Shown here: piece by piece, positions 5,359-18,368 of the stretch | Position numbering within the stretch: position 1 is the stretch's first letter | Layout of the letters: each line of letters starts with the position of its first letter | From: a virus | IMG/VR virus record: IMGVR_UViG_3300035162_001861 | Span: 1-22,150 of that record | Length of the DNA stretch: 22,150 nucleotides | Strand: one strand, 5' to 3' | The notes under the pieces: model-generated | The model's input: the letters and a program-made list of their open reading frames with translations, nothing else | The model's database searches: none | What the model was told of the DNA's origin: nothing | Position numbers and translations under genes: made by a program

Positions 5359-5575
5359 AGAACAATAAGCCCGCAATGTAAATTACGGTTAGTCCTACGT
5401 TCATAACAATTAAACTTTGTTCTTTCCAAAGGACACCAACAAGTATCCAAAGGCTATTACTAATAATGAACGCCCAAATGTACAAAGGGTAAACATTAAA
5501 TGCGGCTAGAGTAGCGGCTGTTAATAAACAAACAGTTGCTACCCATGCTAGCCATTGATAGGGCTTTACCACCAT
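5357..5575 (-). CDS. Small membrane protein with three predicted TM segments
   Basis: A 72-residue, almost wholly hydrophobic protein. Three likely membrane spans are visible: residues about 8-27 (WLAWVATVCLLTAATLAAF), 31-50 (LYIWAFIISNSLWILVGVLW) and 54-72 (SLIVMNVGLTVIYIAGLLF). The pattern SNSLWI..G.LW followed by MN recalls half-size three-helix transporters (SemiSWEET or PnuC type), but the resemblance is weak. It overlaps the preceding 3-TM gene by ten bases, so the two are likely co-translated and may act together. Confidence 0.72.
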   Translation of the reverse strand: MVVKPYQWLAWVATVCLLTAATLAAFNVYPLYIWAFIISNSLWILVGVLWKEQSLIVMNVGLTVIYIAGLLF

Positions 5576-5847
5576 AACGCGGCAACTCCATATCCGTATA
5601 CATTAACTACTGCAAAATATGCTGTTAACAACATGACCCAGGCCGCACCTCTACGTACAGCCGCATAACATTGTGAAACTGCTCCAATAAAGAATCCTGG
5701 ATAAACGAATAGCATATTTGGATCTCTTGCGTTAACAGCAAGTGTTAAACTTGCGGCTACAGTGAAGATAAAACTTATAAGCTCAAACGCAAATGCAGTT
5801 TTGTCTGTTGTGTAGCTGTTAATCCAGAACTCTTTAATTTTTTGCAT
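5566..5847 (-). CDS. Small membrane protein with three predicted TM segments
   Basis: A 93-residue protein with a short polar N-terminus and three hydrophobic stretches: AFAFELISFIFTVAASLTLA, MLFVYPGFFIGAVSQCYAAV and AAWVMLLTAYFAVVNVYGYG. No catalytic motif or signal peptidase site is seen. It starts three bases after the dsbA stop and overlaps the next membrane-protein gene by ten bases. Together they look like a two-subunit membrane device of unknown role in the early region; a transporter or membrane-remodelling function would be guesswork. Confidence 0.75.
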   Translation of the reverse strand: MQKIKEFWINSYTTDKTAFAFELISFIFTVAASLTLAVNARDPNMLFVYPGFFIGAVSQCYAAVRRGAAWVMLLTAYFAVVNVYGYGVAALWW

Positions 5848-6321: not shown

Positions 6322-7194
6322 TTAGGCATCACCTTTTACTTTGTGACAGCTATCGCCTTTACCTCTCCGATAGCCTTTCCAGCATACTTTACCATGACTG
6401 CCTTTTTTCTTTTTACTCGTTTCTTCGTCGAGTGTAGTATAACTTGGGTTGCCACACTCGGAGCAGTTAGCTAATTTTTTTTTTGAGTTTGCCTCTGCTA
6501 ATTTAGCAAAAAGAGTGTCTTCGTAAGATCCGCCTTCTTTTACTTTTTTATTTTTCTTAGCACGTTCGCCACGCTCTGGAAGTTTTTTATAACCTTCACC
6601 GTATGATTTTAATCTAGCGGCGTTTTCAGCTCGTTTTTTTACAAGATCTGCTTCATATTCAGCACTACGTTTAGCACGATGATCTTCTAAGTCTTTGCCC
6701 TGTAGCCCGGGTTTTTTATTTTGTTTAGGGATACTCTTACCACCATTATAAGCGCCTGCTTTAGCCGCTTGGTCTGATGCACTTGATCTAGCTTCTTCAA
6801 CAGCTTTGCCTTTAGTAGTAGCATCAACATAACGGTCATCACCGGCTTTCATTCTTTTGTATGCTTCGGTGCCGGCTTTTTTATCAGCGTCAGTAACCTT
6901 CATTTTCTCTGGAGCGGCTTGCTTCTTTGCTTCAGTAACTTCGTCAAATTTTGTTTCATAGTCTAAATGATGATATACACTGCCTAAATAGTCAGCGGCT
7001 TTAGTAATCTTTGCTTGTACCCAACCATCGAGGCCTTGTTCTTCACTAATGCCTGCAAGCATTTCGTGTAGTTTAATTCCGTACTTTGCAATCTTATATA
7101 GATCGGCACGTGCCATTTGTACTTCGTGGTCTTTATCAACTTTGTAAGCCATGTCAGCTAAACCAGTTTCTTTTAGATCTTTTTCTCTCATCAT
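6322..7194 (-). CDS. Conserved phage protein, Lys-rich, with C-terminal Cys-containing tail
   Basis: A 290-residue, highly charged protein of the kind found in marine T4-like phages. Residues about 20-90 form a helical domain (DHEVQMARADLYKIAKYGIK and onward to SVYHHLDYE). The middle is a long Lys/Ala-rich low-complexity region, probably disordered. The C-terminus carries CSECGNPSY, then KGSHGKVCWKGYRRG and a final Cys-His, a possible small zinc site. Two adjacent ATGs follow AAGGATAAT; either could be used. A late-type box GATAAATA (7220-7227) overlaps the upstream gene's stop, and the T4-like terminator follows, so this is the last gene of the late block. Function unknown; virion-associated by context. 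Confidence 0.72.
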   Translation of the reverse strand: MMREKDLKETGLADMAYKVDKDHEVQMARADLYKIAKYGIKLHEMLAGISEEQGLDGWVQAKITKAADYLGSVYHHLDYETKFDEVTEAKKQAAPEKMKVTDADKKAGTEAYKRMKAGDDRYVDATTKGKAVEEARSSASDQAAKAGAYNGGKSIPKQNKKPGLQGKDLEDHRAKRSAEYEADLVKKRAENAARLKSYGEGYKKLPERGERAKKNKKVKEGGSYEDTLFAKLAEANSKKKLANCSECGNPSYTTLDEETSKKKKGSHGKVCWKGYRRGKGDSCHKVKGDA

Positions 7195-7219: not shown

Positions 7220-7227
7220 TATTTATC
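7220..7227 (-). promoter_or_regulatory. Late-type promoter box GATAAATA
   Basis: Minus-strand GATAAATA differs from T4 TATAAATA only in the first base. By T4 geometry (+1 six bases past the last A) the transcript would start near 7214, giving a 20-base leader that contains AAGGAT before the start of the 290-residue gene. It overlaps the stop codon of the gene at 7223. Confidence 0.65.
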
Positions 7228-8041
7228 GTTTGATAGTCTTGCCGCCCATTAAATTATTCTTAATATCTAAGGCGCTTTTAGCTGTTCCATCTGGGTTTTT
7301 TGCTTGCGGCGCTTTGGGAACACCGTTCTTGTCACGTTTAATTTTAGCATGTGCCGCAACTGGATTGACTACTACACCTATGTTACTCGAAACAGTTGCT
7401 CCTGAAGTAGCTTCTTCCTTAACAGCATTTTTTGTCTGCATATAATCATATAGTTTCTTACCGCCATACAATAGTGCAACAACTGCCGCGGCAGGTAATG
7501 CATATTTTACTGCATAGCTTGCTAACTTTTGAATAGCAATGGTGCTAATTGCACCTTTAGTAATCTTGCCGATACTGTTAGCCCATCCAGATGCATCTGT
7601 CGGTGCAACTGTTAATAATTCTTTAACTGCGGCAGGATCTTTAACTGCGTCAGGCACCTTGCTTATAATGTCAGCAGGTGCTGGTGCTTTTGCTCCACCT
7701 GCAGGTCCACCTGCTCCTGTGCCCGGTGCTACTGTTGTTGTAGCATTAGCATCCCACCAAGCAAAGTCAGGTTCATCTCCAGTAATTTTTTTAAAGATAT
7801 CAAGTAATTCTTTGTCGTTTGGATTAGCTTGTATTTTATCCTGAAATTCTTTAGCAATTCTATCAGCAACATCAGGATCTTTTCCTTGTGCTGTTAGTGC
7901 GTTATAAATTTGTGACGCAGGACTTCTGTCACTCCATGCACCTGCAGGTCTACTACCAACTAATAAATCTAATGCGGCCCATAAAGGTGCCCATTCATTT
8001 AACGGTTGATTAATGTTATTTGTAAGTTCTCTCAGTCTCAT
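7223..8041 (-). CDS. Ala/Gly-rich phage protein with one TM segment and capsid-targeting-like leader
   Basis: A 272-residue protein. The N-terminus MRLRELTNNINQPLNE ends in an LxE site like those cut by the T4 gp21 prohead protease. Residues about 113-130 are Gly/Ala/Pro-rich linker, and a clear hydrophobic helix (YALPAAAVVALLYGG, about 181-195) follows an amphipathic stretch. The C-terminal part is basic. No catalytic motif is recognised. A GGTAAATA box (8047-8054) is placed so that transcription could start on the ATG itself. Possible internal head protein or one that inserts in a membrane during DNA entry; this is inference. Confidence 0.7.
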   Translation of the reverse strand: MRLRELTNNINQPLNEWAPLWAALDLLVGSRPAGAWSDRSPASQIYNALTAQGKDPDVADRIAKEFQDKIQANPNDKELLDIFKKITGDEPDFAWWDANATTTVAPGTGAGGPAGGAKAPAPADIISKVPDAVKDPAAVKELLTVAPTDASGWANSIGKITKGAISTIAIQKLASYAVKYALPAAAVVALLYGGKKLYDYMQTKNAVKEEATSGATVSSNIGVVVNPVAAHAKIKRDKNGVPKAPQAKNPDGTAKSALDIKNNLMGGKTIKR

Positions 8042-8046
8042 ACTAG

Positions 8047-8054
8047 TATTTACC
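8047..8054 (-). promoter_or_regulatory. Late-type promoter box GGTAAATA, apparently leaderless
   Basis: Minus-strand GGTAAATA shares six of eight positions with T4 TATAAATA. Its last A lies exactly six bases before the A of the ATG at 8041, which is the T4 distance between box and +1. A transcript from here would carry no ribosome binding site; GGGG within the box is upstream of the predicted start. Confidence 0.45.
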
Positions 8055-8055
8055 C

Positions 8056-8250
8056 CTAACTAGCAACCATACTAAATAATGCCGGGCCAAAACTACTTGC
8101 GGCCCAACCTAGTGCTACAAGTGTTACCACTCCGTATACTAGCCATTTTATTTTAAAGTCATCTACTACCATCTTTAGTCCAACTAGTTCGTTACCTAAT
8201 ACACGCAACGATACTTCTAATTTACCAATGTCGTCTTTTTCGTCAGCCAT
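8056..8250 (-). CDS. Small single-TM protein
   Basis: A 64-residue protein. An acidic, helical N-terminal half (about residues 1-33) is followed by one strong membrane segment WLVYGVVTLVALGWAASSFG (about 35-54) and a short hydrophobic tail. The arrangement, cytoplasmic amphipathic helix then a single span near the C-terminus, fits a small tail-anchored or membrane-tethering phage protein; pinholin-like action is possible but it lies outside the lysis cassette. It begins six bases after the HAD-fusion gene stop, with AAGGA ten bases before the ATG. Confidence 0.68.
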   Translation of the reverse strand: MADEKDDIGKLEVSLRVLGNELVGLKMVVDDFKIKWLVYGVVTLVALGWAASSFGPALFSMVAS

Positions 8251-8256
8251 AATATA

Positions 8257-9294
8257 TTATCCTTTTGCTTTTTTACGTCCAGCTTTCATATTAGCCATCC
8301 AGTGTGCCATACGTTGCTTTTCGCCACTGCTATTCTTTGCAGTTTTTCTTAAATCACTTACACTTGCTTTTGTATTCACGCCACTACGCTTGGCTAATCC
8401 TTTACGGCCTGGCTTTTTACCATCTGCAAAGTTTTCTTCTACCGGCTCTTCTATGTGTTGTTTTAATTCTTTTGCTGTACGTTCAAACTTATGATCTTTG
8501 TATTTAAATCCAATACCGCCTGCCGCTTCCCACGAAGCAACGTTCTTACCAAAGTCGTCGACTAGTATATTTGGAGTTCCATCTTTGTTTGTAGCGTATT
8601 GCGGTTTGTTGTTAGTAATGTATACGTTCTTAGGTGGAAAAAATGCTAGATTCTTTTCAATCCATTCACGCTTATGTGGCTCTGATTTGGGATCATCTGC
8701 AAGTGGTGTACTACATATATTGTATTCACCTTTAACTTGTTTGATTAAATTTAGTAATTGTTTTGCTTGCGGTAGTAATGGTAAGTCTAACCAAAACTGT
8801 TCTGTGTCACGTATTGCTTGCAGTGCTACATTAATGTCAATATTGTCAATCTTTCTATAATGATCAACTTTCATTAGTTTAGCCCACTCACCAAAGAAGT
8901 CTGCTAATACACCATCCATATCTACGTATATTTCACTTGCAGATGCTAGTTCGCCTAGTTTAGCTTCTGATAAATTTGATAACATGCTGTATTGTAGCAC
9001 ACTTTCGGTGTTGTTGTCAACCAAATTGTTTTTGCTTTCAGCCATTCCTAGGTTAAACAATACGTTTGTTTTAGAACCTTTAACTTTTTTACTTAGTGTA
9101 GCAGGACGTCCGTCTTTGTCTACCTTAAAGCCAAACTTAGCGGCTTGTTTTGTAATTTCATTAGGACCGACATCAACAGTGGTGTTAACACCTTTAACAA
9201 TACGGCCGCCGTTCTCTTGTATACGAAGAAAATGTTTGAAACTTCCTGGCTTAGGAACTTTGTTATCAAGGTCTTTTAAATTATGAAACTTCAT
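8257..9294 (-). CDS. HAD-superfamily 5'(3')-deoxyribonucleotidase-like protein with extra N-terminal domain and basic tail
   Basis: This 345-residue protein has three parts. Residues 1-115 are an unrecognised phage domain (starting MKFHNLKDLDNKVPKPGSF). Residues about 120-275 are a HAD phosphatase of the 5'-nucleotidase C type: motif I DMDGVLAD (D125 nucleophile, D127), motif II CSTPL (T196), a Lys in the KREW stretch, and motif III/IV LVDDF (D246, D247). Residues about 300-345 are a strongly basic, Lys/Arg-rich tail that could bind DNA. Members of the family dephosphorylate dNMPs. Its start overlaps the upstream gene's stop (ATGA). A nucleotidase fused to virion-like modules inside a late block is unusual; it may act on nucleotides from host DNA or in the capsid (inference). 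Confidence 0.8.
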   Translation of the reverse strand: MKFHNLKDLDNKVPKPGSFKHFLRIQENGGRIVKGVNTTVDVGPNEITKQAAKFGFKVDKDGRPATLSKKVKGSKTNVLFNLGMAESKNNLVDNNTESVLQYSMLSNLSEAKLGELASASEIYVDMDGVLADFFGEWAKLMKVDHYRKIDNIDINVALQAIRDTEQFWLDLPLLPQAKQLLNLIKQVKGEYNICSTPLADDPKSEPHKREWIEKNLAFFPPKNVYITNNKPQYATNKDGTPNILVDDFGKNVASWEAAGGIGFKYKDHKFERTAKELKQHIEEPVEENFADGKKPGRKGLAKRSGVNTKASVSDLRKTAKNSSGEKQRMAHWMANMKAGRKKAKG

Positions 9295-9530
9295 TTACGT
9301 TTACGCCCTCTAAGTCCTTGCGGCATATTAACAGCGCCACCGCCTTTTTTAGTCATTTTAGGTAAACTAAACCATAGTTTAAACCATTCATCTGTGCCGG
9401 GCTTAATATTCTTTTCACGTTCAATCTCACGTTTCTCAGTTCCGGTTTGACTAATGTTTTCTAGAGTGTACTCAGTGTAACCTTTATACTCGTTAACTCC
9501 TGCTAACTGTTTTAAACGTTCAATATCCAT
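9291..9530 (-). CDS. Small conserved phage protein
   Basis: A 79-residue protein with a helical, charged N-terminal half and a C-terminal stretch NIKPGTDEWFKLWFSLP followed by a Gly-rich, basic end (GLRGRKRK). The N-terminus MDIERLKQLAGVNE resembles start sequences of other late proteins in marine T4-like phages. The ATG sits one base after the stop of the nucleotidyltransferase gene, and its stop overlaps the HAD-fusion start by ATGA. Function unknown; a small structural or DNA-associated protein is likely from context. Confidence 0.7.
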   Translation of the reverse strand: MDIERLKQLAGVNEYKGYTEYTLENISQTGTEKREIEREKNIKPGTDEWFKLWFSLPKMTKKGGGAVNMPQGLRGRKRK

Positions 9531-9531
9531 A

Positions 9532-10518
9532 TTAACTCGCTCGTCTTACTTGATGATCAATTTTTAATTGAGTGAATAGTTTTGATGTTGTTTCAACACT
9601 AGTAAGCATTTTTTTAATACGATCTTCATGCTCTGGATTGTCTTCAACCTTTTTCATAAATGATTTTGCGGCATCTGGTTTAATAAAAATTAATCTACCA
9701 CTCCAAGCGGTTCCTTTTACAAAGAAACTTAAAAAATGTTCTTTGCCATCATTACGTGAACCAACCCAGTCAAGCACTTTTAGTTTGTTTGGGTCTTGCT
9801 GTTTAGGATCAGCGTTATTTGTTTTCTTAAATAATTTTAATTCAGCAACTTCTTCGTCACTTTCAGTTGTTTCATCGTGACTAAACCCAAGTGCATTACG
9901 CACATCATCAAACATTTGTTGTGCTACACTTTGATCCGGAACGCCTTGTTTAAAACTTTCAAAGTCATCTTGTGCGGCCGCTTCACGCATCTTGCTCGCA
10001 CTCATACCACTAGCATCGTTTGCTTCTTCGTCTCGGAACCCACCTTCTTCAACACTTACTTCTTTAATATTATAAGCAATGTTACCTGACTGATCAGGTG
10101 TGTTGTTATATGGAAGTATTTGTGATTCAAATTCTTTAACTCTATCTGATCCACAAACAAGTACTACTTTTTCGTAGCCTTTATTTTCTAGATGTTTCAT
10201 AACACTCATAATAGTGGTTAAACTTGGATCTGTACTGATAGGAATATTAAAAAACTTTTGTGCATAACTGAGCTTTGTTTTCCAATCTAATGGATTTTTA
10301 ATATTTGCTGTTCTATAATGTTTACTTGTTTTTCCTTTAGGAGTCAAGAATGGTGTTTGCGACATAGTTAAAAACAGCATTGGATTTCCGCCGTACTGTT
10401 TTGCTTTAGAATTAATAGCATCAACTAATACGCCATGACCAATAGTAGGAGGATTCATTCTACCAAATCCAATTACTGCGGTTTTAGTATTAGCTTCAAA
10501 TAAATTTCTTAGCCGCAT
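9532..10518 (-). CDS. Nucleotidyltransferase (cytidylyltransferase-like) with capsid-targeting-like leader
   Basis: A 328-residue protein. Residues about 12-180 form an HxGH-type nucleotidyltransferase: GFGRMNPPTIGHG has T25-I-G-H28 in place of HxGH, VLVCGSDR lies around 119-126, and SASKMR at 173-178 matches the (I/S)SSTxIR nucleotide-binding motif. The family transfers NMP from an NTP to small phosphates, as in NadM/NadR or CTP:phosphocholine enzymes; substrate here is unknown. The C-terminal about 100 residues are an unrecognised domain. The first eight residues MRLRNLFE are followed by Ala, an (L/I)xE|A site like the T4 capsid-targeting cut. GGAGG lies nine bases before the ATG, and the gene overlaps its upstream neighbour by 23 bases. 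Confidence 0.82.
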   Translation of the reverse strand: MRLRNLFEANTKTAVIGFGRMNPPTIGHGVLVDAINSKAKQYGGNPMLFLTMSQTPFLTPKGKTSKHYRTANIKNPLDWKTKLSYAQKFFNIPISTDPSLTTIMSVMKHLENKGYEKVVLVCGSDRVKEFESQILPYNNTPDQSGNIAYNIKEVSVEEGGFRDEEANDASGMSASKMREAAAQDDFESFKQGVPDQSVAQQMFDDVRNALGFSHDETTESDEEVAELKLFKKTNNADPKQQDPNKLKVLDWVGSRNDGKEHFLSFFVKGTAWSGRLIFIKPDAAKSFMKKVEDNPEHEDRIKKMLTSVETTSKLFTQLKIDHQVRRAS

Positions 10519-10840
10519 CCAAGTCTGCCTCCTGTGGATTTCTTTCGTTATCCATAACTTTACTCATCAAGTCTGCCTTTTCTTGATTAGTCATTAAGTC
10601 CTTAGGCAACTTGTTAATATCGTACTTGTTACAATAATGATTTAGACACTTATCAATCATTGGCATTACGTGTCCTTGAATTATTTTTTCGTTGTTAGCA
10701 CTTTTAATTTTATCCATGCAAGGCATGTAATGCTTTCTATAGAACCCTTCGTCATTTAGCATGTGAAAATGTAGGTCACTGCCTACATCATATGGTGTTT
10801 CTTCTGGTTGTTGTCGACTAAAAATTTCACGGATCATCAT
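10496..10840 (-). CDS. Conserved hypothetical phage protein
   Basis: With a start at 10838-10840 the protein is 114 residues, beginning MMIREIFSRQQPEETPYDVG. A longer frame from a GTG at 10876 is possible but would overlap the Cys-rich small gene, whereas this ATG comes one base after that gene's stop. The protein is helical and charged, with Cys at two sites and many Met and His (FHMLNDEGFYRKHYMPCMDK), and has no membrane segment. Its stop lies inside the nucleotidyltransferase start region (23-base overlap). Function not recognised; it is flanked by virion-type genes. Confidence 0.72.
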   Translation of the reverse strand: MMIREIFSRQQPEETPYDVGSDLHFHMLNDEGFYRKHYMPCMDKIKSANNEKIIQGHVMPMIDKCLNHYCNKYDINKLPKDLMTNQEKADLMSKVMDNERNPQEADLDAAKKFI

Positions 10841-10841
10841 A

Positions 10842-11015
10842 TCATTTATCTGCCTTGTTCTTAGCATGACAATCACAATGCTTGCAATTAGGTCCGCATT
10901 CGCATTCTGTTACAGGCTTACCGCAACATGCTTCTGGACACATTTCTGGAGATTCTTGTATTGCCATTAAACGATCGCCTAGTTCTCTAATTTGTTCTGC
11001 TACTGATTTTACCAT
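10842..11015 (-). CDS. Small Cys-rich, metallothionein-like metal-binding protein
   Basis: A 57-residue ORF (ATG at 11013-11015, stop at 10842-10844). The N-terminal 20 residues are a helical lead (MVKSVAEQIRELGDRL). The rest holds eight Cys and two His within 25 residues: C26, C30-C31, then C38-E-C40, C44, H46, C47, C49 and H50. The CxC and CxxCxC spacing of ECECGPNCKHCDCH is typical of metallothionein-like or compact zinc/iron clusters. GGAG lies nine bases before the ATG. It overlaps the upstream gene by seven bases and is followed one base later by the next start, so it sits in a coupled operon. The codon register and neighbours argue that it is real. Which metal it binds and its role are unknown. 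Confidence 0.82.
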   Translation of the reverse strand: MVKSVAEQIRELGDRLMAIQESPEMCPEACCGKPVTECECGPNCKHCDCHAKNKADK

Positions 11016-11419
11016 TTTCTACAACTCCAATATCTCGCTTTAGTGCGCGGTCCCGGATTATCACAGTTGTGCCTTGCTCTAAACGACTTACGTGCGCCCG
11101 GATTGTTTTTACGAATCTTCATAGCTTTACCTTTAACACTGCTTCCACCGTGTCCAAAGTTAACTTTTTTAGTGTTACCCGTCTTAGGATCTTTAACATA
11201 GACTTTAAACTTCTTAACATCGCCTTGCATAGGCTTGCCTAGTTTAACTGTACGTCCTTGATATTCTGCTTCGTCCATGATGTCATCTTCATTATAGTGC
11301 ATAACACCGTATGCTTCAAAGAACGCATCATCATCGTCATACGTTTCGTCGATAGCAACATCATTAATATACACTCTATCTTCAGCTTCTGTCAAGTAAT
11401 CTTTAAATGTCTTTGTCAT
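11009..11419 (-). CDS. Virion-type protein with capsid-targeting-like leader and conserved basic C-terminal domain
   Basis: A 136-residue protein. It starts MTKTFKDYLTE|A, strikingly like the T4 capsid-targeting sequence MKTYQEFIAE|A. Residues about 18-52 are very acidic (ETYDDDDAFFEA and following), and residues 55-136 are basic with the conserved marine-phage ending SFRARHNCDNPGPRTKARYW plus SCRKW. The two Cys may bind metal. AGGAG lies eight bases upstream, and a GATAAATA box at 11437-11444 puts the predicted transcript start exactly at that AGGAG. Probably an internal or head-associated protein processed by the prohead protease (inference from leader and context). Confidence 0.77.
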   Translation of the reverse strand: MTKTFKDYLTEAEDRVYINDVAIDETYDDDDAFFEAYGVMHYNEDDIMDEAEYQGRTVKLGKPMQGDVKKFKVYVKDPKTGNTKKVNFGHGGSSVKGKAMKIRKNNPGARKSFRARHNCDNPGPRTKARYWSCRKW

Positions 11420-11436
11420 AATTTAACTCCTATTAG

Positions 11437-11444
11437 TATTTATC
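11437..11444 (-). promoter_or_regulatory. Late-type promoter box GATAAATA
   Basis: Minus-strand GATAAATAC differs from T4 TATAAATA at one base. With the T4 distance the transcript starts at 11431, giving a 12-base leader that begins with AGGAG, the ribosome binding site of the 136-residue gene. It lies in the only gap between that gene and the one at 11460. Confidence 0.7.
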
Positions 11445-11459
11445 GTAGGGTTGCTTGAG

Positions 11460-12503
11460 TTACCTAACTATTGCTGTAATTTTAGGAAATGCTTCGCCTA
11501 TTCTAGTTGTAATAGGATATGCTGATTTAACAATTACTTGACAAACTTCTAACAGTTCAGGCAAGCTATCTGCATAGTTTGTTTGTGCCGGCTGTGTTCC
11601 TGCATCAATAAACAAAATACCCATACCTGCTACTTTAGCACCAAAGTATATATGTAAGTTTGCAAGTCCATGGAAGTATAATGCTTTTTCTGCATTACCT
11701 GCTTTGAGCTGTTCTCCAATTTGACTAATATATTCACTTTCACCAAAAAGAGACTGAATTACTTTAGTTGTATCACTGATGATATCTTCTGCTTTATCAG
11801 GATTATGTTTAATGGCTCCTACAACGTGTGCCATTGAATAACCGCTTTTTCCAGGTGTACCAAATATATCTTTGTATTTGTTAAGATAGTCTTGAGCATC
11901 ATTAAGGTATACTCTTGAATTATTTTTTACATCATCATCACTAAATCTGCCACCTGTTTTTCCGCCTTTTACTTCAATTTCTTGTCCGTTAGCAAGTACA
12001 GTTAGATCGCCTTTTTTACCTTTAGTTAAGTTTTTACTATGTGCTGAAAATAAAATTTCTCCTGGGCCAATACGTTGACCTGGTTGATACATAAGCATGT
12101 CATCAAAGTAATGTGCAGTCTGTTTTGAGTGATTATAATATGGAATAATCTTACTTATATCACTTGTTACTGCTCTAAGTTGCTTTCCATTAATCACTGT
12201 ATCTGTTTCTAAATCTTGAATAATTTTTTTCATTTCTTCAAAAGTTAAATCATTACCAATCATAAACTTAGCCATAATTTTATATTGGGCTTTGATATCT
12301 GCATCATCTATTTTAGACAAAGGTCCTGCTATTCGACTATACGAAGATTGATCTCTGCCTTTTTCGTCTGTCCCACCCATTGCTATTTGTATTAAGTTTT
12401 CAATTTTATCTAATACACGTGAGTTTGTGCCATCAGGTAAATTCATAACATCTTGTTTAATTTGCTTTAGATCAGCTTCTTTAATTATTTGACTATATCT
12501 CAT
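11460..12503 (-). CDS. PD-(D/E)XK nuclease-like phage protein with capsid-targeting-like leader
   Basis: A 347-residue protein. The first nine residues MRYSQIIKE followed by Ala form an (I/L)xE|A site like T4 capsid-targeting leaders. Residues about 147-185 contain GPGEILFSAH, then KKGDLTVLANGQEIEVKGGK: D166 and E177-V-K179 fit the D...ExK core of the PD-(D/E)XK nuclease fold, with E149 as the expected upstream acidic residue. The rest is helical and unrecognised, with a hydrophobic stretch near FGAKVAGMGILFIDAG. Its ATG overlaps the preceding acidic gene by one base (TAATG). If real, it could be a DNA-cutting enzyme carried in the virion; the assignment rests on one short motif. Confidence 0.68.
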   Translation of the reverse strand: MRYSQIIKEADLKQIKQDVMNLPDGTNSRVLDKIENLIQIAMGGTDEKGRDQSSYSRIAGPLSKIDDADIKAQYKIMAKFMIGNDLTFEEMKKIIQDLETDTVINGKQLRAVTSDISKIIPYYNHSKQTAHYFDDMLMYQPGQRIGPGEILFSAHSKNLTKGKKGDLTVLANGQEIEVKGGKTGGRFSDDDVKNNSRVYLNDAQDYLNKYKDIFGTPGKSGYSMAHVVGAIKHNPDKAEDIISDTTKVIQSLFGESEYISQIGEQLKAGNAEKALYFHGLANLHIYFGAKVAGMGILFIDAGTQPAQTNYADSLPELLEVCQVIVKSAYPITTRIGEAFPKITAIVR

Positions 12504-12769
12504 TATACACTTACCTCAATATCAAAACTATTGTATCCTAGATCAAAAAGTTTAATTGCTATGTTTTCTGCAACTACATCCGACTCTTCTTCTGTAAGAG
12601 CAACATGTGTCTCAACCATAAGAACTGTTTGACCTTCTTCGGATTCATTTAAAGAGTAATTAGTTTCACTCTCCATTAGTGCAGTTGATGCACTAGTTGC
12701 TACTTCTGATATGACAATATCATCTACTTCTTCAATTTTGTCAAAAATGATATTAATAAAATTTTCCAT
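12503..12769 (-). CDS. Small, very acidic hypothetical protein
   Basis: An 88-residue protein very rich in Glu and Asp, with almost no Lys or Arg after the first 15 residues. It alternates short helix-like stretches (INIIFDKIEEVDDIVISEV) with a C-terminal beta-like end. AAGGGTT lies directly before the ATG, and its stop overlaps the start of the PD-(D/E)XK-like gene (TAATG). Acidic partners of this size can be DNA mimics or antitoxin-like or assembly factors for a neighbour; here a partner of the nuclease-like protein would be a reasonable guess, without direct evidence. Confidence 0.65.
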   Translation of the reverse strand: MENFINIIFDKIEEVDDIVISEVATSASTALMESETNYSLNESEEGQTVLMVETHVALTEEESDVVAENIAIKLFDLGYNSFDIEVSV

Positions 12770-12777
12770 GTTAACCC

Positions 12778-13122
12778 TTAATGATTTAATCTAATACTGT
12801 TTACTGATCCATCAGTGTACACTAACTTAGCTCTTACCCAGACAAAGTTTCCAGTAAAGTTTGCATATTTAACGCTTGTTTCTGAACTACTAGCAGTATA
12901 CGTATGCACATCAAACCAATCACTGTCAATTGGAGTTGTAGCCAACGTACCTTGAATTGTTATAGTTCCTGCTAGACCGACATAGTCGTATTGAACTGTG
13001 TGGATACCATCACTACGTCCGTAGTAACCGTCCCCTTTAAAGTTTTCACTCGTGACAGTTACACTAGAACTGTCTCCTGGGTGTGTGTTTTCTGATAAGA
13101 TTATTTCGCTATTATTTGGCAT
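12778..13122 (-). CDS. Beta-rich structural protein (tail or neck accessory type)
   Basis: With the ATG at 13120-13122 the protein is 114 residues, starting MPNNSEIILSEN. It is beta-rich, Ser/Thr-rich and low in Lys, with VQYDYVGLAGTITIQGTLA and FTGNFVWVRAKLVYTDG, and ends RLNH. This pattern matches small virion accessory proteins common in cyanophages and pelagiphages. An upstream extension in the same frame exists but would overlap the preceding gene by about 70 bases and has no clear ribosome binding site. A late-type box sits six bases from the chosen ATG. Confidence 0.75.
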   Translation of the reverse strand: MPNNSEIILSENTHPGDSSSVTVTSENFKGDGYYGRSDGIHTVQYDYVGLAGTITIQGTLATTPIDSDWFDVHTYTASSSETSVKYANFTGNFVWVRAKLVYTDGSVNSIRLNH

Positions 13123-13126
13123 ACAA

Positions 13127-13825
13127 CTATTTATGCAAATCATTCTCGGAAACAATTTTTTCGATTCGTGCAATCTTGCCACCAAGTGCAATCTTTGCTA
13201 ACATAAGATACTTTTCAGATTTGACATAAAAGTAAAATCCTTCAATATATCCACCTCTTTCAATAGTTTTCTTTGCAACATTGCCTATTTTAATAGCATT
13301 TGGATTATTATCACAGTAAACAGCAAATGATTTACTTACAGATCTGCCAAGGTATACCTTAAAAGGCCATTCTACATTGCCCTTAACTATTAGTGTGTTA
13401 GCATTGGCTAGTAGAAAGTCTTGCGCTTCATCTGAACTAGGAACACTAAAGCTAACAGCATTAACTTTCTTAGATAATGTGTTAAGCCAGTCATGTTCGT
13501 TAGAGTAGATATCAAGATTGTGTCCTTCTATCCTAGTCATGCATACATCTTGATTAGTTTCAAGTGCTGTATAGATTACACAACCATCCATAAAGGTTTC
13601 TAAATTAATAATATTTGGGTTGGCGCGACTAGCTGTGCCGCGTCCCCTCCAATAGAATGGACTTTCTATCGGAAGGTCAGCTTCAGCTTGTTGTTGCATT
13701 GCATCTAATTTAGTTTTAGCAAAAATTAAATTCATGCCTCTAAATATAGATGCTATACTGTTCTTTATACGTAACTTGTATACGTACTTGTTATAGAACA
13801 GCTTACTCGTGGACTGTTTCAGCAT
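13127..13825 (-). CDS. Conserved hypothetical phage protein
   Basis: A 232-residue mixed alpha/beta protein. The first 35 residues are basic (KLFYNKYVYKLRIKNSIASI), followed by a Gln/Ala helix and the motif FYWRGRGTASRANPN. The C-terminal half has alternating beta-strands and Lys. No membrane segment or known catalytic motif was recognised. It overlaps the ClpA-like gene by 23 bases in another frame, so it is probably co-expressed from the sigma-70 promoter upstream of clpA. A substrate-adaptor role for ClpA cannot be excluded from the coupling but has no direct support. Confidence 0.72.
   Translation of the reverse strand: MLKQSTSKLFYNKYVYKLRIKNSIASIFRGMNLIFAKTKLDAMQQQAEADLPIESPFYWRGRGTASRANPNIINLETFMDGCVIYTALETNQDVCMTRIEGHNLDIYSNEHDWLNTLSKKVNAVSFSVPSSDEAQDFLLANANTLIVKGNVEWPFKVYLGRSVSKSFAVYCDNNPNAIKIGNVAKKTIERGGYIEGFYFYVKSEKYLMLAKIALGGKIARIEKIVSENDLHK
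13128..13135 (-). promoter_or_regulatory. Possible late-type promoter box CATAAATA, apparently leaderless
   Basis: Minus-strand CATAAATA covers the end of the upstream gene (His-Lys-stop). Its last A lies exactly six bases before the A of the ATG at 13122, the T4 box-to-+1 distance. It could be a leaderless start or a coincidence with coding sequence. Confidence 0.4.
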
Positions 13826-16064
13826 CGGACTCTACTTTTTGCTTGGCCGGAGTAAGATGCAGTTGATTGTCGACGACATCGATCTTCAATGTGCCACCTT
13901 CTCTTAGATCACCGAACAATAGCATTTTACTAAGTGGACGTTTGATCTCTTTATCGATATATCTGTGCATAGGTCTTGCACCCATTTTACTATCAAAGCC
14001 GTTTTCAGCAAGGTGATCAAGTGCATCATCTGTAATTTCACAAACAACATTTTTATCATCAAGCATTGTTTTAAGTTCAAGTAAGAACTTACCAACAATT
14101 TTAAGCATAATAGGTTTTTCAAGTTTTCCAAATGTAACTACACCGTCAAGTCTATTTCTAAACTCTGGAGCAAAGAAACGTTTGAATTCTTCATCGCCGT
14201 ATTCACCATCTAGATCTTCATTAAATCCAATAGTATTCTTTTCTGCTTGTGCGGCACCTAAGTTAGTAGTAAGGATTAGGATACAATTACGTGCATCTGC
14301 TTCTTTACCATCACTACCTGTAATTTTACCATTGTCCATAATCTGTAATAGAATTTGTGCAATGTCAGGGTGTGCTTTTTCAATCTCATCAAGTAGTAGT
14401 ACACAGTTAGGATGTTCTTGTAGTTGATTAATCAACTGTCCTGAATGATCATCGTGACCTACATAGCCTGGAGGTGAACCAATTAGCTTACTTACACTAT
14501 GCTTCTCTTGGAATTCACTCATATCAAAACGTGCAAGGTGTACGCTTAGATGTTTTGCAAGTTGTTTTGCAAGTTCAGTTTTACCGACACCAGTTGGACC
14601 CATAAACACAAAGCTACCAATTGGCTTTTCTTCTGATTTAAGTCCAGCCTGTGCAACAAGAATCTTATCTACAATCTCATCAATAGCAGTGTCTTGTCCA
14701 TACACATTAAGTTTAAGATTTTTATCTAGCTGGCTAAGATTATTTGTTTCCTTTTGCTGAATCTGCTCAGGTGGTAGATTAACAAATTTAGCAAGTTCGT
14801 ACTTGACCTCGTCTGCTCCTACAATCTTTTCACCGTCATAAGATTTCAAGTTAAAGCGCGAACATGCAAGATCAATTAAGTCAATAGCTTTATCAGGTAA
14901 CTTTTTGTCAGTGATATACTTAATACTTAATTTAACAGCTTCGTCGATTGCTTCTTGTGTAATCGTTGTATTATGGAATTCTTCATAATACTTTTTAATG
15001 CCTTGTAAAATTTGTACTGTTGTTTTCTTATCAGGCTCGTCTACACTTACACGTTGGAATCGACGCATCAATGCACGATCCTTTTCAAAGAACTTACGAT
15101 ACTCGTCCCATGTAGTTGACGCAACAACTTTAATGTCGCCTTTACCTAGTGCAGGCTTTAACATATTAGCCAAATCGTTTGAACTATTGCCGCCACCGGC
15201 TCCTGCTCCGTTCATCATATGTGCTTCGTCAATGAATACAATAGTTTTACCTTGCTTCTTAATTGCGGCCATGACTAGCTTAAAGCGTTCTTCAAAGTCT
15301 CCGCGATACTTACTACCTGCAAGCATAGCACCAATGTCTAGATTATAAACACTATACTCTAACAAGAACTCAGGTACTTCTTTGTTAACGATACGATATG
15401 CAAGACCTTCTGCAATAGCAGTTTTACCAACACCTGGATCACCAACTAATAGTACGTTGTTCTTGTTACGGCGCCCTAATGAAAGAGCAATACTTTCAAT
15501 TTCTTCAGCTCTACCAATGACGGGATCAATTTTGCCGCTTTCAACTTCAATGTTTAGGTTAGTAGTAAACGCCTTCAACGCTTTTTGTGCTAAACCTGTT
15601 AGTTCTTCATCTTCTACTGACGATACAAATTCATTATTAATATAATTGCTGAACTTTTCTTTATCCACACCTGCCTTAGTAACAGTGTATGTAGCAAACG
15701 AATTCTTTTCGTTTAGCATAGAAAGAAAAACATCACAGATATCAATATGCTGACGTCCACTAAATAGAACTTGTGTAAACGCTCTGTTCATTACTCGTTC
15801 AACTGTTTGTGTCTTCTTGGGCTTATACTTTACCTTTGAATCAGGAACTGTAATATCAACTAGTTTAGTCTGGAGATACTCTAAGATCTCTTTTTGTAAC
15901 GGTGCAACATCTGTTCCATAACCTTGCAAAATCTTTGTAAAGTTATCAGTACATAGCATTGCAAATAGCAAATGTTCCAGCGTCACATACTCGTGATTTA
16001 ACTGTCTTGCATCTTTAATACTTTTATCAAATACAACTTGTAACTCTTCGGATGGTTCTACCAT
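13803..16064 (-). CDS. clpA: ClpA-type AAA+ unfoldase
   Basis: A 753-residue double-ring Clp ATPase, almost the same length as E. coli ClpA (758). It has an N-terminal repeat domain (about 1-150), D1 with Walker A GDPGVGKT (208-215) and Walker B FIDEAH, and D2 with Walker A GPTGVGKT (489-496), the pore loop GYVG and Walker B LLLDE (556-560). The arginine-finger stretch FAPEFRNRLD is present. Crucially, TIGFNED carries the tripeptide IGF (612-614) at the place of the ClpP-docking loop of ClpA (IGL), and there is no ClpB middle coiled-coil domain. It therefore probably feeds proteins to ClpP, either the host's or a phage one not in this window. A perfect sigma-70 promoter lies directly upstream, so expression should begin early. 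Confidence 0.96.
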   Translation of the reverse strand: MVEPSEELQVVFDKSIKDARQLNHEYVTLEHLLFAMLCTDNFTKILQGYGTDVAPLQKEILEYLQTKLVDITVPDSKVKYKPKKTQTVERVMNRAFTQVLFSGRQHIDICDVFLSMLNEKNSFATYTVTKAGVDKEKFSNYINNEFVSSVEDEELTGLAQKALKAFTTNLNIEVESGKIDPVIGRAEEIESIALSLGRRNKNNVLLVGDPGVGKTAIAEGLAYRIVNKEVPEFLLEYSVYNLDIGAMLAGSKYRGDFEERFKLVMAAIKKQGKTIVFIDEAHMMNGAGAGGGNSSNDLANMLKPALGKGDIKVVASTTWDEYRKFFEKDRALMRRFQRVSVDEPDKKTTVQILQGIKKYYEEFHNTTITQEAIDEAVKLSIKYITDKKLPDKAIDLIDLACSRFNLKSYDGEKIVGADEVKYELAKFVNLPPEQIQQKETNNLSQLDKNLKLNVYGQDTAIDEIVDKILVAQAGLKSEEKPIGSFVFMGPTGVGKTELAKQLAKHLSVHLARFDMSEFQEKHSVSKLIGSPPGYVGHDDHSGQLINQLQEHPNCVLLLDEIEKAHPDIAQILLQIMDNGKITGSDGKEADARNCILILTTNLGAAQAEKNTIGFNEDLDGEYGDEEFKRFFAPEFRNRLDGVVTFGKLEKPIMLKIVGKFLLELKTMLDDKNVVCEITDDALDHLAENGFDSKMGARPMHRYIDKEIKRPLSKMLLFGDLREGGTLKIDVVDNQLHLTPAKQKVESDAETVHE

Positions 16065-16098
16065 TACGTTTTTATTCCTTTTCTTAATTTACTTTACT

Positions 16099-16127
16099 AT
16101 TATAATACAATTACGGACCGTTGTCAA
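16099..16127 (-). promoter_or_regulatory. Perfect consensus sigma-70 promoter of clpA
   Basis: Minus-strand TTGACA (16122-16127) and TATAAT (16099-16104) are 17 bases apart, twelve of twelve consensus matches. The -35 overlaps the dnaJ-like stop codon (16124-16126). Start would be near 16092, leaving a 28-base leader with AAGGA before the clpA ATG. It gives clpA, and genes after it, a promoter independent of the lysis region upstream. Confidence 0.93.
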
Positions 16128-16948
16128 CTATATTTCTTACCAATCTCTTTAATAATATTTAAGTCTTCTTGATCTAATCCTGATGGTGTCTGGCCCACGA
16201 TTTTAACTAATACGTTGCCTGAATTGCCGCCTCTATTAAGTAGTCCCTTGCCTGTAATTTTTAATGTAGTGTTAGGTGGAGTGCCACCTGGTATATTTAA
16301 GTTTACACTCGACCCGCCCGGAACACTAATTCTAATTACGCACCCTGTTATTAGTGCTAGTGTGTTTATACGCTTAGTTGTAATTAAATCAAGACCATTT
16401 ACTTCATAATCGTTTGTGCCTTTAATTACAATTTGCACATATAAGTCTCCTGGAGGCACTTGTTGTATATCATGCTGGCCCATGCCTGCATATCTAATCT
16501 TATCACCTTGTCTTACACCCTGCGGTATCTGAATGTCAATCGTTTGTTCACGACCGTTGTTCAATCTATAGTTTGCAATAATGTTTTTGCCATTAAACAC
16601 TTCTTCAATACTAACGTCACAGCCAATAGTAATATCTTGATTACGCATTTGTTGTCTTGCACCCGGCCCCATTCCTCCACCAAATCCAAACTGACTCATA
16701 ATATCATTAATATCAAAGGCATGACCACCACCTTGGAATTGCTGTGAATTAAATGAATGTTGGGGATTGTCGTATTGCTGGCGTTTTTGTGGATCTTTTA
16801 GTATACCGTATGCTTCAGCAACTTTTTTAAAGTGTTCGGCATCACCACCCCTGTCGGGATGGTGTTTCATACTTGCTTGCTTGTATGCTTTTTTAAGGTC
16901 TTCGGGTGACGCTTGTTTTTGCACCCCTAGTATGTCATAATAATTCAT
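16124..16948 (-). CDS. DnaJ/CbpA-like co-chaperone (class B, no zinc finger)
   Basis: A 274-residue Hsp40. Residues 1-65 are a J-domain with the HPD motif at 30-32 (KHHPDRGGD), which stimulates DnaK ATPase. A Gly/Phe/Met-rich linker (FGFGGGMGPG, about 92-101) follows, then the two beta-rich client-binding domains. The four CxxCxGxG repeats of class A DnaJ are absent, so this is a class B protein like CbpA rather than a truncated DnaJ. No obvious Shine-Dalgarno sequence precedes the ATG. It follows the lysis cassette by 23 bases and precedes the clpA promoter. It would recruit the host DnaK to phage or host proteins, perhaps together with the phage ClpA. Confidence 0.94.
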   Translation of the reverse strand: MNYYDILGVQKQASPEDLKKAYKQASMKHHPDRGGDAEHFKKVAEAYGILKDPQKRQQYDNPQHSFNSQQFQGGGHAFDINDIMSQFGFGGGMGPGARQQMRNQDITIGCDVSIEEVFNGKNIIANYRLNNGREQTIDIQIPQGVRQGDKIRYAGMGQHDIQQVPPGDLYVQIVIKGTNDYEVNGLDLITTKRINTLALITGCVIRISVPGGSSVNLNIPGGTPPNTTLKITGKGLLNRGGNSGNVLVKIVGQTPSGLDQEDLNIIKEIGKKYS

Positions 16949-16971
16949 ACTAATACTTATTTGTTAGTAGG

Positions 16972-17343
16972 TTACTTTTTACTAGTTCCGGTATACAGTC
17001 CAAACCAAGCCGCACCTGCACCAACTACAATACTAATAAGTCCACTTTGCTCCATACTTGGATCTGGTAAGTTCATGTACCAAATAACACATTTATAAAG
17101 CAACACAATATACACAGTTAAGAACATACGTGGAAAGATTCTCCAAGCATCTACTGCTCTAGCCATATGTATAAGCCTAGCATACGGATTAGGACCCATA
17201 TCTTTTACGCTAGTATCTACTTCTAAGTCTAGTTTAACTTTACGTGTTGTAGTATCTGATGTGCTTACTACTACTGCATCAGGCTTTGATTCAACTGCTG
17301 GCCCAATGTCTTTATCTAAGTCTTCAAGTTTTTTTCTTGGCAT
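16972..17343 (-). CDS. Holin-like membrane protein
   Basis: A 123-residue protein with a long charged N-terminus (about 1-65) and two C-terminal membrane segments, MFLTVYIVLLYKCVIWYM and LISIVVGAGAAWFGLYTG, ending in a short basic tail. The second span and GLYTG resemble the conserved end of holin-like proteins in marine T4-like phages. GAGGG lies about nine bases before the ATG, and the gene overlaps its upstream neighbour by 20 bases. It is the last gene of the lysis cassette; together with the endolysin and spanins it would make the timed hole. Holin identity is inferred from topology and place. Confidence 0.75.
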   Translation of the reverse strand: MPRKKLEDLDKDIGPAVESKPDAVVVSTSDTTTRKVKLDLEVDTSVKDMGPNPYARLIHMARAVDAWRIFPRMFLTVYIVLLYKCVIWYMNLPDPSMEQSGLISIVVGAGAAWFGLYTGTSKK

Positions 17344-17623
17344 TTTTCTTTCCCTCTAGTTTATTTAAACGAGCTTCTAGCTCATCAATTTTTTTAGTGA
17401 CATGCGGATACTTCTTACGCCAAGCATCAGTCGGTTGTTCAAACCAAGTTAATCCCCAACGCTCTACTAGAAAGTCTAAGAACTGATCTAGTTTAGCATA
17501 GCACCAAAGCCCTGCTCTTGTATCTTTAAAATACGCTAAAAATGCGGCGCCAGCTATTGCGCCAAGTATACTTGTGTACACCCACAAAGTATCACCTGTT
17601 AGTCTTTCAATCAAATCCCACAT
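17324..17623 (-). CDS. Membrane protein with C-terminal coiled coil, lysis-cassette member
   Basis: A 99-residue protein: a short start, one hydrophobic span (WVYTSILGAIAGAAFLAYF, about 14-32), an amphipathic Trp-rich middle and a coiled-coil-like, Lys-rich end (KKIDELEARLNKLEGKKNAK). GGGGG lies seven bases upstream. It sits between the o-spanin and the holin-like gene. It could be a second holin, an antiholin or a holin partner; it could also be a structural protein. Topology suggests a cytoplasmic C-terminal coil. Confidence 0.68.
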   Translation of the reverse strand: MWDLIERLTGDTLWVYTSILGAIAGAAFLAYFKDTRAGLWCYAKLDQFLDFLVERWGLTWFEQPTDAWRKKYPHVTKKIDELEARLNKLEGKKNAKKKT

Positions 17624-17648
17624 AAATTGCCCCCTATGTTAGTATCTA

Positions 17649-18035
17649 TTATTCTTCTTTTTCTTCTTCTGGAAGCGGTTGTACTGCTTCTTCATAATAA
17701 ACAATTATTTCTTTTTGCTGTTCAATATAACGTCTTAGTTCAGCAAAATTTAAACTAAGATTTTCGTAGTCTTTTACACTAATAACAATGCGAGCATCGC
17801 CACCGTTTTTCTTTCTATATTCTTCAATAAACTCTTCAAAATTATCTTTGTTAACAACATAAATCTTAACATCGTTCATTTGCACAGGCTTTGGACTAGA
17901 AACAATAGGTACTACTGTTTTCTCAATTTTAGTAACGATTTGTATCTGCGGTTCTTGATTAAATGTACTACAACTACTCAGTAGGAGTGTCGCTAGTAAT
18001 AGACTCGAGATCGTCCCAAAGTTTATCTGTTGCAT
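17649..18035 (-). CDS. Outer-membrane spanin lipoprotein (Rz1-like, o-spanin)
   Basis: A 128-residue lipoprotein. It has a hydrophobic signal ending in the lipobox LLSSC with lipidated C22; Ser at +2 favours outer-membrane sorting. The mature part is charged, with an acidic end (PLPEEEKEE). Its first 62 bases overlap the 3' end of the i-spanin gene in another frame, the classical Rz/Rz1 arrangement. GAGG lies seven bases before the ATG inside the i-spanin gene. At 106 mature residues it is longer than lambda Rz1 and not Pro-rich. It would join the i-spanin to fuse the two membranes in the last step of lysis. Confidence 0.84.
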   Translation of the reverse strand: MQQINFGTISSLLLATLLLSSCSTFNQEPQIQIVTKIEKTVVPIVSSPKPVQMNDVKIYVVNKDNFEEFIEEYRKKNGGDARIVISVKDYENLSLNFAELRRYIEQQKEIIVYYEEAVQPLPEEEKEE

Positions 18036-18360
18036 TTTGCATCCTCTTTTCGATTAATCCTGGCTTCTTTTCTGCCAAGTGTGTTAGATTATGTTTTTGC
18101 AAAGTCGCACGAAGTTCATCCCCGTACGTCTCTGCTTTTCTTAGTTCTACATTGAGGGTATCAGTAAGTCCGTTAAGTCTAATGTTGTCTGCTTTAACTG
18201 TTGCAAGACTTTGTTCACTGATTTCAACTGCCGCTTCTAGTTTAGCGTTATTAAGCCGTGCAATTTCTAAATTAGACTGTAGTTGCTTAACGTAGAAAAC
18301 TCCGCCGCCAGCACCTGCTAACATAATAAAAACTAATGCAATTTTAATTGTGCTAAACAT
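17974..18360 (-). CDS. Inner-membrane spanin (Rz-like, i-spanin)
   Basis: A 128-residue protein with an N-terminal membrane anchor (IKIALVFIMLAGAGGGVFYV, about 5-24) and a long periplasmic coiled coil (about 26-85: heptad-like with Leu, Ala and Glu). This is the shape of Rz-type i-spanins. It starts eight bases after the endolysin stop and its end overlaps the o-spanin gene by 62 bases. In the membrane it would bridge the periplasm through the o-spanin once the peptidoglycan is cut. The gene pair plus neighbours make the assignment good. Confidence 0.83.
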   Translation of the reverse strand: MFSTIKIALVFIMLAGAGGGVFYVKQLQSNLEIARLNNAKLEAAVEISEQSLATVKADNIRLNGLTDTLNVELRKAETYGDELRATLQKHNLTHLAEKKPGLIEKRMQNATDKLWDDLESITSDTPTE

Positions 18361-18368
18361 AGACCAGT

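Follow-up and report, generated by a model that had tools for sequence, protein, structure and literature searches.

Do the short N-terminal leaders shared by a group of phage genes direct their proteins, enzymes among them, into the capsid? The question arises in the window analysed here, a 22,150-nt stretch of IMGVR_UViG_3300035162_001861 (positions 1-22,150; all coordinates below are window positions), in which several genes open with a peptide ending in (L/I)xE, the motif of the T4 protease gp21. The T4 internal proteins IPI-IPIII carry a capsid-targeting sequence (CTS) that is cut by gp21 (PMC9026906; PMC12373910). The analysis makes it likely that the leaders of the window are T4-type capsid-targeting propeptides, and that the block bearing them is a cassette of cargo that is loaded into the capsid, cut by gp21 and injected.

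Leader-bearing genes in the window

Four leaders had been described in the initial annotation, at the gene starts 11419, 10518, 12503 and 8041. All four are in the sequence as given, each opening with ATG behind a purine-rich stretch, but the count was too low: at least seven leaders are found in the window, with those starting at 9530, 7194 and 11015 having been missed. Seven window genes, like their homologues, begin with a short predicted propeptide whose end matches the gp21 motif, with V rather than L/I at P3 in the gene at 9291-9530. The features are as follows; a slash marks the putative cleavage site.

7168-7194, minus strand: additional leader MMREKDLKE/T, on gene 6322-7194
7223-7993, minus strand: body of a 272-aa gene; behind EE, its C-terminal module (7223-7411) is similar to the N-arm of mature gp23
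7994-8041, minus strand: leader MRLRELTNNINQPLNE/W of the same gene, longer than the others first described
8257-9294, minus strand: block member resembling deoxyribonucleotidases (NT5C; Pfam PF06941, E 3e-8)
9489-9530, minus strand: additional leader MDIERLKQLAGVNE/Y, on the 79-aa gene 9291-9530
9532-10494, minus strand: NMNAT/cytidylyltransferase-like nucleotidyltransferase body, orthologue of the cyanophage virion protein T4-GC190
10495-10518, minus strand: leader MRLRNLFE/A, immediately preceding strand 1 of the nucleotidyltransferase fold
10496-10840, minus strand: gene starting MMIREIFSRQ, a leader-like start without an (L/I)xE site
10953-11015, minus strand: leader MVKSVAEQIRELGDRLMAIQE/S, additional and of the longer kind; its gene (10842-11015) encodes a 57-aa, Cys-rich protein
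11009-11386, minus strand: body of a 136-aa gene, with a phrog_7595 C-terminal domain
11387-11419, minus strand: leader MTKTFKDYLTE/A of the 136-aa gene, the window's nearest to the T4 CTS MKTYQEFIAE/A
11460-12476, minus strand: protein of 347 aa bearing a PD-(D/E)XK-like motif, a nuclease by motif only
12477-12503, minus strand: leader MRYSQIIKE/A, with homologues MRAFELITE/T and MRAKEFLKE/D

The NT5C-like gene has no clear leader in its window copy; its homologue in relative G007 begins MRASELE/LPKG, just ahead of the HAD motif. Homologues of the gene starting MMIREIFSRQ begin MLLNEIFNN (G004) and MRLMELFSS (G007). The description of the leader-bearing proteins as late is not established, because there is no excess of TATAAATA-like late-promoter sites in the window.

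T4 ipII and ipIII start MKTYQEFIAE/A, as had been noted; the same start had been ascribed to Alt, wrongly, since T4 alt starts MELITELFDE/D. Other T4 starts are MAKINELLRE/S in gp24 and MLKEQLIAE/A in gp22. The aromatic residues that IPIII has at positions 4 and 7 are present in MTKTFKDYLTE (shifted by one) and in cyanophage orthologues, and are absent from the other window leaders, which resemble the T4 Alt and gp24 starts.

Conservation, exchange and enrichment of leaders

A comparison of homologous leaders showed that the Glu is kept, as is an L, I or V two residues before it, and that the remaining leader residues vary. Among 26 distinct leaders the Glu is constant, and P3 is L, I, V or F in 25 of them. 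Homologues of MRLRNLFE/A are MLLRQLFE/D, MHLRQLFE/A and MRLFDLFE/D. Those of the 8041 leader are MRIRELITE/Y, MLIRELFIE/A, MKINEILE/A and MRIRDVVTE/K, the last, from G007, being followed by a second conserved site, ..QQLNE/W. For the 7194 leader they are MREKDLKE followed by D or N, MKMDNITE/G, MKQSELLE/A and MKQNKIIHE/A, and the leader of the 9530 gene is kept in six relatives with its end conserved as [VI]NE/[YF]. Leaders are also swapped between unrelated bodies, one leader occurring on non-homologous mature proteins and one body behind differing leaders. A homologue of the 11419 gene has the leader MAKTFKDYLKE/A and shares the C-terminal domain, with an unrelated middle; G008 has a leader near-identical to MVKSVAEQIRELGDRLMAIQE/S in front of an unrelated body, and in G005 and G009 the Cys-rich body of the 11015 gene follows other leaders.

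Leaders were counted by a basic residue at positions 2-4 together with an [LI]xE whose last residue lies at 8-12, and compared with shuffled sequences. The window had this pattern in 5 of its 27 genes (mean after shuffling 0.55), G003 in 13 of 266 (4.3), G006 in 9 of 139 (2.4) and G007 in 5 of 36 (0.8); G001, G002 and G005 showed no clear enrichment. These counts are partly post hoc, the patterns having been drawn up following an initial listing. Under a mechanical rule, with five contigs pooled, leaders gather in the block flanked by the ClpB-like and DNA polymerase genes (26/56, versus 66/473 elsewhere). The window alone gave no significant difference by this rule (block 6/11, rest 4/16, p = 0.12). 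Sinorhizobium phage Phosso had no comparable block among the genes inspected near its polymerase.

Composition alone might repeatedly produce short N-termini of hydrophobic and acidic character, the four leaders first described then being unrelated. Loose patterns are indeed common, as the 66 genes outside the blocks illustrate, and the p value of the window by itself would allow this. The pooled block enrichment, the exchange between bodies and the presence of the tag in phages with virion data (S-CREM2 and S-CRM01, below) argue the other way, and since homologues of the window families keep both leader and site, a chance origin is disfavoured and appears extremely improbable.

Head genes of relatives

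A gp21-like protease, which had been suggested as a further point to look for, was found in relatives G003 and G006 (E about 1e-27), together with gp23; none was found in the window, a fragment that does not span that genome region. The gp23, gp22 and gp21 proteins of relatives have starts or sites of the same (L/I)xE type: gp22 starts MLDALKNLFE, gp23 MSELLE and gp21 MNKIQYLRE, and gp23 has a matching cleavage-type site, YLAE/AATAG. That scaffold and shell proteins begin likewise could mean that the leaders attach to the core or shell of the prohead, their proteins being structural or core parts that are neither released nor injected, with (L/I)xE perhaps uncut. The gp23 N-arm-like module of the 7223 family and the block gene with a leader but no Glu site would fit such a role. 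However, the cargo includes enzymes with conserved catalytic motifs, and in S-CREM2 a SAM hydrolase and a kinase, and the Glu with L/I/V before it is conserved while the rest varies, as a protease site would be. A purely structural role is considered unlikely, and targeting propeptides on cargo remain the preferred reading.

Confirmed and putative enzymes of the block

The protein encoded at 9532-10518 had been called a nucleotidyltransferase, and this was confirmed by its match to phrog_3041 (E 3e-45), by invariant GRxNPxTxGH, GSDR and GMSxxKxR motifs, which include the TxGH and SxxKxR types seen in Rossmann-fold nucleotidyltransferases, and by Foldseek matches to FAD synthetase, NadD and phage cytidyltransferases. 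It scored far under the cut-off against TIGR00482. In the model, a short N-terminal helix is followed by a strand at residues 13-20.

For the 11460-12503 protein, the proposed PD-(D/E)XK likeness stands as far as the motif, but not beyond it. E149, D166 and E177-V-K179 are invariant (three homologues), giving the E...D...ExK motif; Pfam, NCBIfam, PADLOC and PDB sequence searches returned nothing credible, there was no credible structure match, and a genome-collection scan found no relative. The AlphaFold2 model (pLDDT 43) is unusable for judging a nuclease fold. In a direct tblastn search of annotated phages, neither the 7223 nor the 11460 protein found a match.

Tagged proteins in cyanophage virions

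Cyanophage orthologues of the nucleotidyltransferase start MKKFSAFLNE/A, MKKFSAFLTE/A, MKSFFQFLSE/A, MKSFTSFFTE/A, MKSFSQFLTE/T, MKSFLQFLKE/A and MKNFSSFLTE/A, and leaders of the MKKFSAFLNE/A type are close to T4 MKTYQEFIAE/A. The cytidyltransferase homologues of P-HM1, Cr30 and Ettore lack a leader. The orthologue was detected by mass spectrometry in purified virions of S-SM1 (PMC3037559), S-SCSM1 (PMC9602691) and S-CREM2 (PMC10665884), and three block families have orthologues or module homologues among the virion proteins so detected (same reports). A tagged protein of G007 is 61% identical to the S-SCSM1 virion protein gp93, and the C-terminal module of the G006 homologue of the 7194 protein matches virion proteins of S-CREM2 and S-SCSM1.

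Structural and lytic proteins aside, S-CREM2 virions contain four enzymes, and every one is tagged (SAM hydrolase, kinase, Cas9-like protein and cytidylyltransferase); gp13 and gp136 are tagged too. The strict T4 pattern occurs in 4/52 virion proteins versus 1/146 others in these data (p = 0.017), a separation that is only moderate. Among the six proteins listed there as non-structural virion proteins it occurs in three, or four with the Cas9-like site, versus the same 1/146 of undetected genes. In S-CRM01, an out-of-sample check made after S-CREM2, the virion kinase starts MISFDQFLSE/K and its neighbours are tagged. The expectation that the tag would predict further virion effectors elsewhere holds in both phages. 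A genome-wide loose-motif test in S-SCSM1 showed no enrichment among virion proteins; other virion proteins therefore enter without such a tag, and a bare LxE near the start is insufficient evidence for any given protein.

Carry-over is raised explicitly by the proteome authors, who could not exclude contamination. The detected enzymes might then be contaminating abundant proteins of the infected cell, with the leaders serving otherwise, for example as amphipathic helices for complex assembly. Against this, the tag in the S-CREM2 enzymes listed as detected lies far above the background among undetected genes and is repeated in S-CRM01, and it is similar to the leaders of T4 internal proteins, for which capsid targeting is proven (PMC9026906). 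Contamination as the whole explanation is very improbable. Capsid loading, as originally proposed, is well supported by gp21 and gp23 in relatives, by conserved modular leaders and, above all, because virion-detected orthologues and enzymes of cyanophages carry the tag; we infer the same targeting for the window's phage itself.

Proposed mechanism and significance

In the proposed mechanism, an N-terminal peptide, mostly of 8-16 residues, would dock its protein onto the prohead scaffold core, the phage gp21 protease would cut behind the Glu of (L/I/V)xE as the head matures, and the freed protein would remain in the head beside the DNA and enter the host at infection. Besides small basic and Cys-rich proteins, the cassette between the ClpB-like and DNA polymerase genes would supply an NMNAT-like nucleotidyltransferase, a putative nuclease and probably also a nucleotidase. 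Cleavage at the Glu and injection would be expected by analogy with T4, and the cargo may act in the host on NAD or nucleotide metabolism or on DNA defence. The injected T4 proteins IPI-IPIII are restriction inhibitors; tagged proteins are therefore candidate early anti-defence or host-takeover factors of abundant aquatic phages.

Cyanophage virion proteomes have repeatedly contained metabolic and regulatory enzymes, and their authors could not decide between packaging and contamination. A targeting tag on virion enzymes offers an explanation, a direct test and a sequence-based prediction of phage-injected proteins. The chances seem even that an N-terminal loading code across the T4 superfamily, cyanophages included, marks whole cassettes of injected enzymes, namely NMNAT-like nucleotidyltransferases, SAM hydrolases, kinases, Cas9-like nucleases, and ligase-like and nucleotidase proteins. 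If so, reading the tag would uncover a large hidden effector set acting before phage gene transcription.

Comparison with known systems

The T4 capsid-targeting mechanism is already known and is extended here to enzyme cargo in other T4-superfamily phages. As with IPI-IPIII, there is a short N-terminal leader ending in (L/I)xE, one leader on unrelated basic proteins, and gp21 and gp23 in relatives; the IP-type leader is matched closely by window gene 11009 and cyanophage orthologues. Unlike IPI-IPIII, the window cargo includes enzymes, up to about ten genes per block are tagged, and most window-type leaders read MR..EL(L/F)xE, without the aromatic positions important in T4 IPIII. T4 Alt, a packaged and injected ADP-ribosyltransferase, is likewise enzyme cargo with an 'ELF.E'-type start (compare MLIRELFIE and MRLRNLFE), whereas the window block has no recognised ADP-ribosyltransferase and its enzyme is a nucleotidyltransferase. 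The inner-body and ejection proteins of phiKZ and SPN3US are prohead-protease-processed cargo ejected with the DNA, as proposed here, but differ in their cleavage motif and belong to a much more divergent head. The cyanophage T4-GC190 cytidyltransferase/NMNAT is orthologous to the 9532-10518 gene, has an N-terminal leader and is virion-resident (PMC3037559, PMC9602691, PMC10665884). In the available passages of these reports its packaging is not tied to a targeting leader; in the window version, by contrast, the leader is fused straight to the domain, without the long linker.

Leader peptides in the window and its relatives

The four N-terminal leaders of the initial annotation (genes starting at 11419, 10518, 12503 and 8041), two of them on predicted enzymes and read there as tags for packaging, cutting and injection, agree exactly with the sequence, and the count has to be raised, as three further genes of the block between the ClpB-like and DNA polymerase genes carry comparable leaders (/, putative cut):

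6322-7194, minus strand, leader MMREKDLKE/T
9291-9530, minus strand, leader MDIERLKQLAGVNE/Y
10842-11015, minus strand, leader MVKSVAEQIRELGDRLMAIQE/S

Because the DNA polymerase of this 22-kb virus fragment is less than 50% identical to its nearest named counterparts (Sinorhizobium phage Phosso and Agrobacterium phage Atu_ph07), relatives were drawn from IMG/VR, among them contigs G003 (229 kb) and G006 (146 kb), both gone through in full. Alignment across homologues, a check proposed with the leaders, found the leader retained with E at the putative P1; P3 was L, I, V or F in 25 of 26 distinct leaders and the remaining positions varied, the constancy of E following partly from its choice as the table's anchor. 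Leaders are also exchanged between different protein bodies. In G008, MVK(S/T)xAExIRE(L/M)GDRL heads a protein unrelated to the Cys-rich one that it heads in the window, the Cys-rich module itself is preceded by MLIRELFIE in G005 and MKQSELLE in G009, and (T/A)KTFKDYL(T/K)E starts proteins with only the C-terminal domain in common. The Cys-rich module, CP.ACCG..TEC.CGP.CKHC.C (window 10842-11015; L009; L033/L030), moves among different leaders and proteins, and is possibly a metal-binding, DNA-associated internal protein.

Leader frequency was assessed by counting a basic residue at positions 2-4 with (L/I)xE ending at residues 8-12. The counts, partly post hoc because patterns were drawn up after a first listing, were 5/27 genes in the window (shuffled mean 0.55), 13/266 in G003 (4.3), 9/139 in G006 (2.4) and 5/36 in G007 (0.8), with no clear excess over shuffled sequences in G001. 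By a mechanical rule applied to five contigs, 26/56 block genes had a leader versus 66/473 outside the block (p ~7e-8, kinship between contigs ignored); for the window taken alone, block and rest did not differ significantly (p=0.12). The G007 run from 10593 to 18920 includes MRLFDLFE/D, MDLDTLKKLAGINE/F, MRAKEFLTE/R, MRASELE/L, MRIRDVVTE/K, MRIRDIIVE/G, MKIRDIIIE/K and MKQNKIIHE/A.

A ClpB-like ATPase and a DnaJ-like protein (window 13803-16064 and 16124-16948) adjoin the block, the ClpB-like gene likewise in G003, G005 and G007; they may be chaperones that serve the cargo or the assembly of heads. NATAAATA-like sites (11437-11444 and 7220-7227, minus strand), each a short way upstream of a gene (11009 and 6322 respectively), could be late promoters; the window shows no enrichment of such sites.

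Protease and capsid protein

A gp21-like protease was found in relatives: G003 and G006 encode Peptidase_S77 (gp21) and gp23. Their gp21 and gp22 have starts of the (L/I)xE type, and their gp23 has YLGE/AATAGATSS or YLAE/AATAGASS ahead of the mature capsid domain. The gene 7223-8041 belongs to a family whose C-terminal module is similar to the N-terminal end of mature gp23 in these phages, E/AATAGATSSGNVATLN:

window 7223-7411, minus strand, E/ATSGATVSSNIGVVVNP
G003 128562-129020, E/SATAGATSSGSIATVVNP
G006 5411-5629

In the contigs scanned, a motif like the mature gp23 start stands right behind an E in gp23 and this family and scarcely elsewhere, which suggests a further putative gp21 site at the module. 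The G007 member has two conserved sites, including QQLNE/W, the counterpart of the window's odd QPLNE/W.

Cyanophage virion proteins

The nucleotidyltransferase gene (9532-10518) has conserved catalytic motifs and is orthologous to the cyanophage T4-GC190 cytidyltransferase. Its usable model (pLDDT 76) gave strong matches to cytidyltransferases of phages and weak ones to FAD synthetase/NadD structures. Of the other candidate enzymes, 8257-9294 is NT5C-like; in 11460-12503, called PD-(D/E)XK-like, E, D and ExK are invariant, and searches for its fold and family gave no credible match.

Starts of T4-GC190 cytidyltransferases
S-SM1: MKKFSAFLNE/A
S-RIM12: MKKFSAFLTE/A
S-SM2: MKSFFQFLSE/A
P-TIM68: MKSFTSFFTE/A
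P-SSM2: MKSFSQFLTE/T
S-SCSM1: MKSFLQFLKE/A
S-CREM2: MKNFSSFLTE/A

Virion presence has been shown by published mass spectrometry for the orthologues of S-SM1 (PMC3037559), S-SCSM1 (PMC9602691) and S-CREM2 (PMC10665884), in the latter two cases by authors who could not exclude carry-over. In S-CREM2 the tag is also found on the remaining non-structural, non-lytic virion enzymes (SAM hydrolase, MKDFDSFLEE; kinase, MKRFDAFLTE; Cas9-like, RFASFMAE/A after ~16 residues) and on gp13 (MKDLHSFLTE) and gp136 (MQTFSMFFSE); the strict T4 pattern occurs in 4/52 virion proteins versus 1/146 others (p=0.017). The S-SCSM1 whole proteome showed no enrichment of the tag pattern among virion proteins, so that many of these would enter in another way, and a bare motif counts for little in any single protein. 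The leader is absent from the cytidyltransferase homologues of P-HM1, Cr30 and Ettore, which argues that the tag is an add-on, gained and lost.

The S-CRM01 kinase, reported in virions and looked up afterwards, starts MISFDQFLSE/K and has tagged neighbours; its orthologues start MKRLGRLLAE (S-B68) and MKSLKLFE (S-N03), linking aromatic leaders with those of the window type. Around the S-SCSM1 NMNAT, gp89-gp93, gp95 and gp97 are marked as virion proteins, and gp93 shares 61% identity, over 57 residues, with the G007 protein whose leader is MRIRDVVTE. Another virion protein, gp160 of S-CREM2, is matched by the C-terminal module that the 6322 gene's homologue in G006 encodes (71% over 52 residues).

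S-SCSM1 gp93 (L057 42227-42436) has a CTS-like C-terminus, RTFKEFLEYIE, the leader of its G007 homologue being N-terminal. The cyanophage virion 'Cas9-like' family (S-CREM2 gp12, L061 7704-10313; L071, L072, L073) has a tag-like site in four phages, F.(S/N)F(M/I/L).E/A or similar, behind an extension varying in length, at roughly 15-20 residues. Cyanophage T4-GC71 proteins (L086 2689-3915; L053 2866-3762) contain KWDGAPAIVFG, which resembles motif I of ATP-dependent ligases; in L086 a neighbouring ligase-like gene, a T4-GC71 relative, is tagged (MKKFSTFITE/Q) and the nucleotidyltransferase is not.

Comparison with T4

A T4-type propeptide for capsid targeting is the best explanation of the leaders; we infer cleavage and injection, and for the window phage itself targeting too. 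The literature searched, which included few subscription journals, yielded no description of an enzyme cassette with Alt/gp24-like leaders or of its link to cyanophage virion enzymes. The targeting principle is already known from T4, where ten residues of IPIII are enough for targeting, which depends most on residues 4 and 7, processing depending most on 8 and 10, and gp21 cleaves after (L/I)xE (PMC9026906). According to the T4 record, MKTYQEFIAE/A begins both ipII and ipIII, gp22 starts MLKEQLIAE/A and gp23 contains GSFLTE/A. The initial annotation gave Alt the MKTYQEFIAE start; the record has MELITELFDE, and this and the gp24 start, MAKINELLRE, are better models than the MKTYQEFIAE type for the MR..EL(L/F)xE leaders. 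T4 internal proteins are basic, and so are most block proteins examined (6/8, pI 8.4-9.7).
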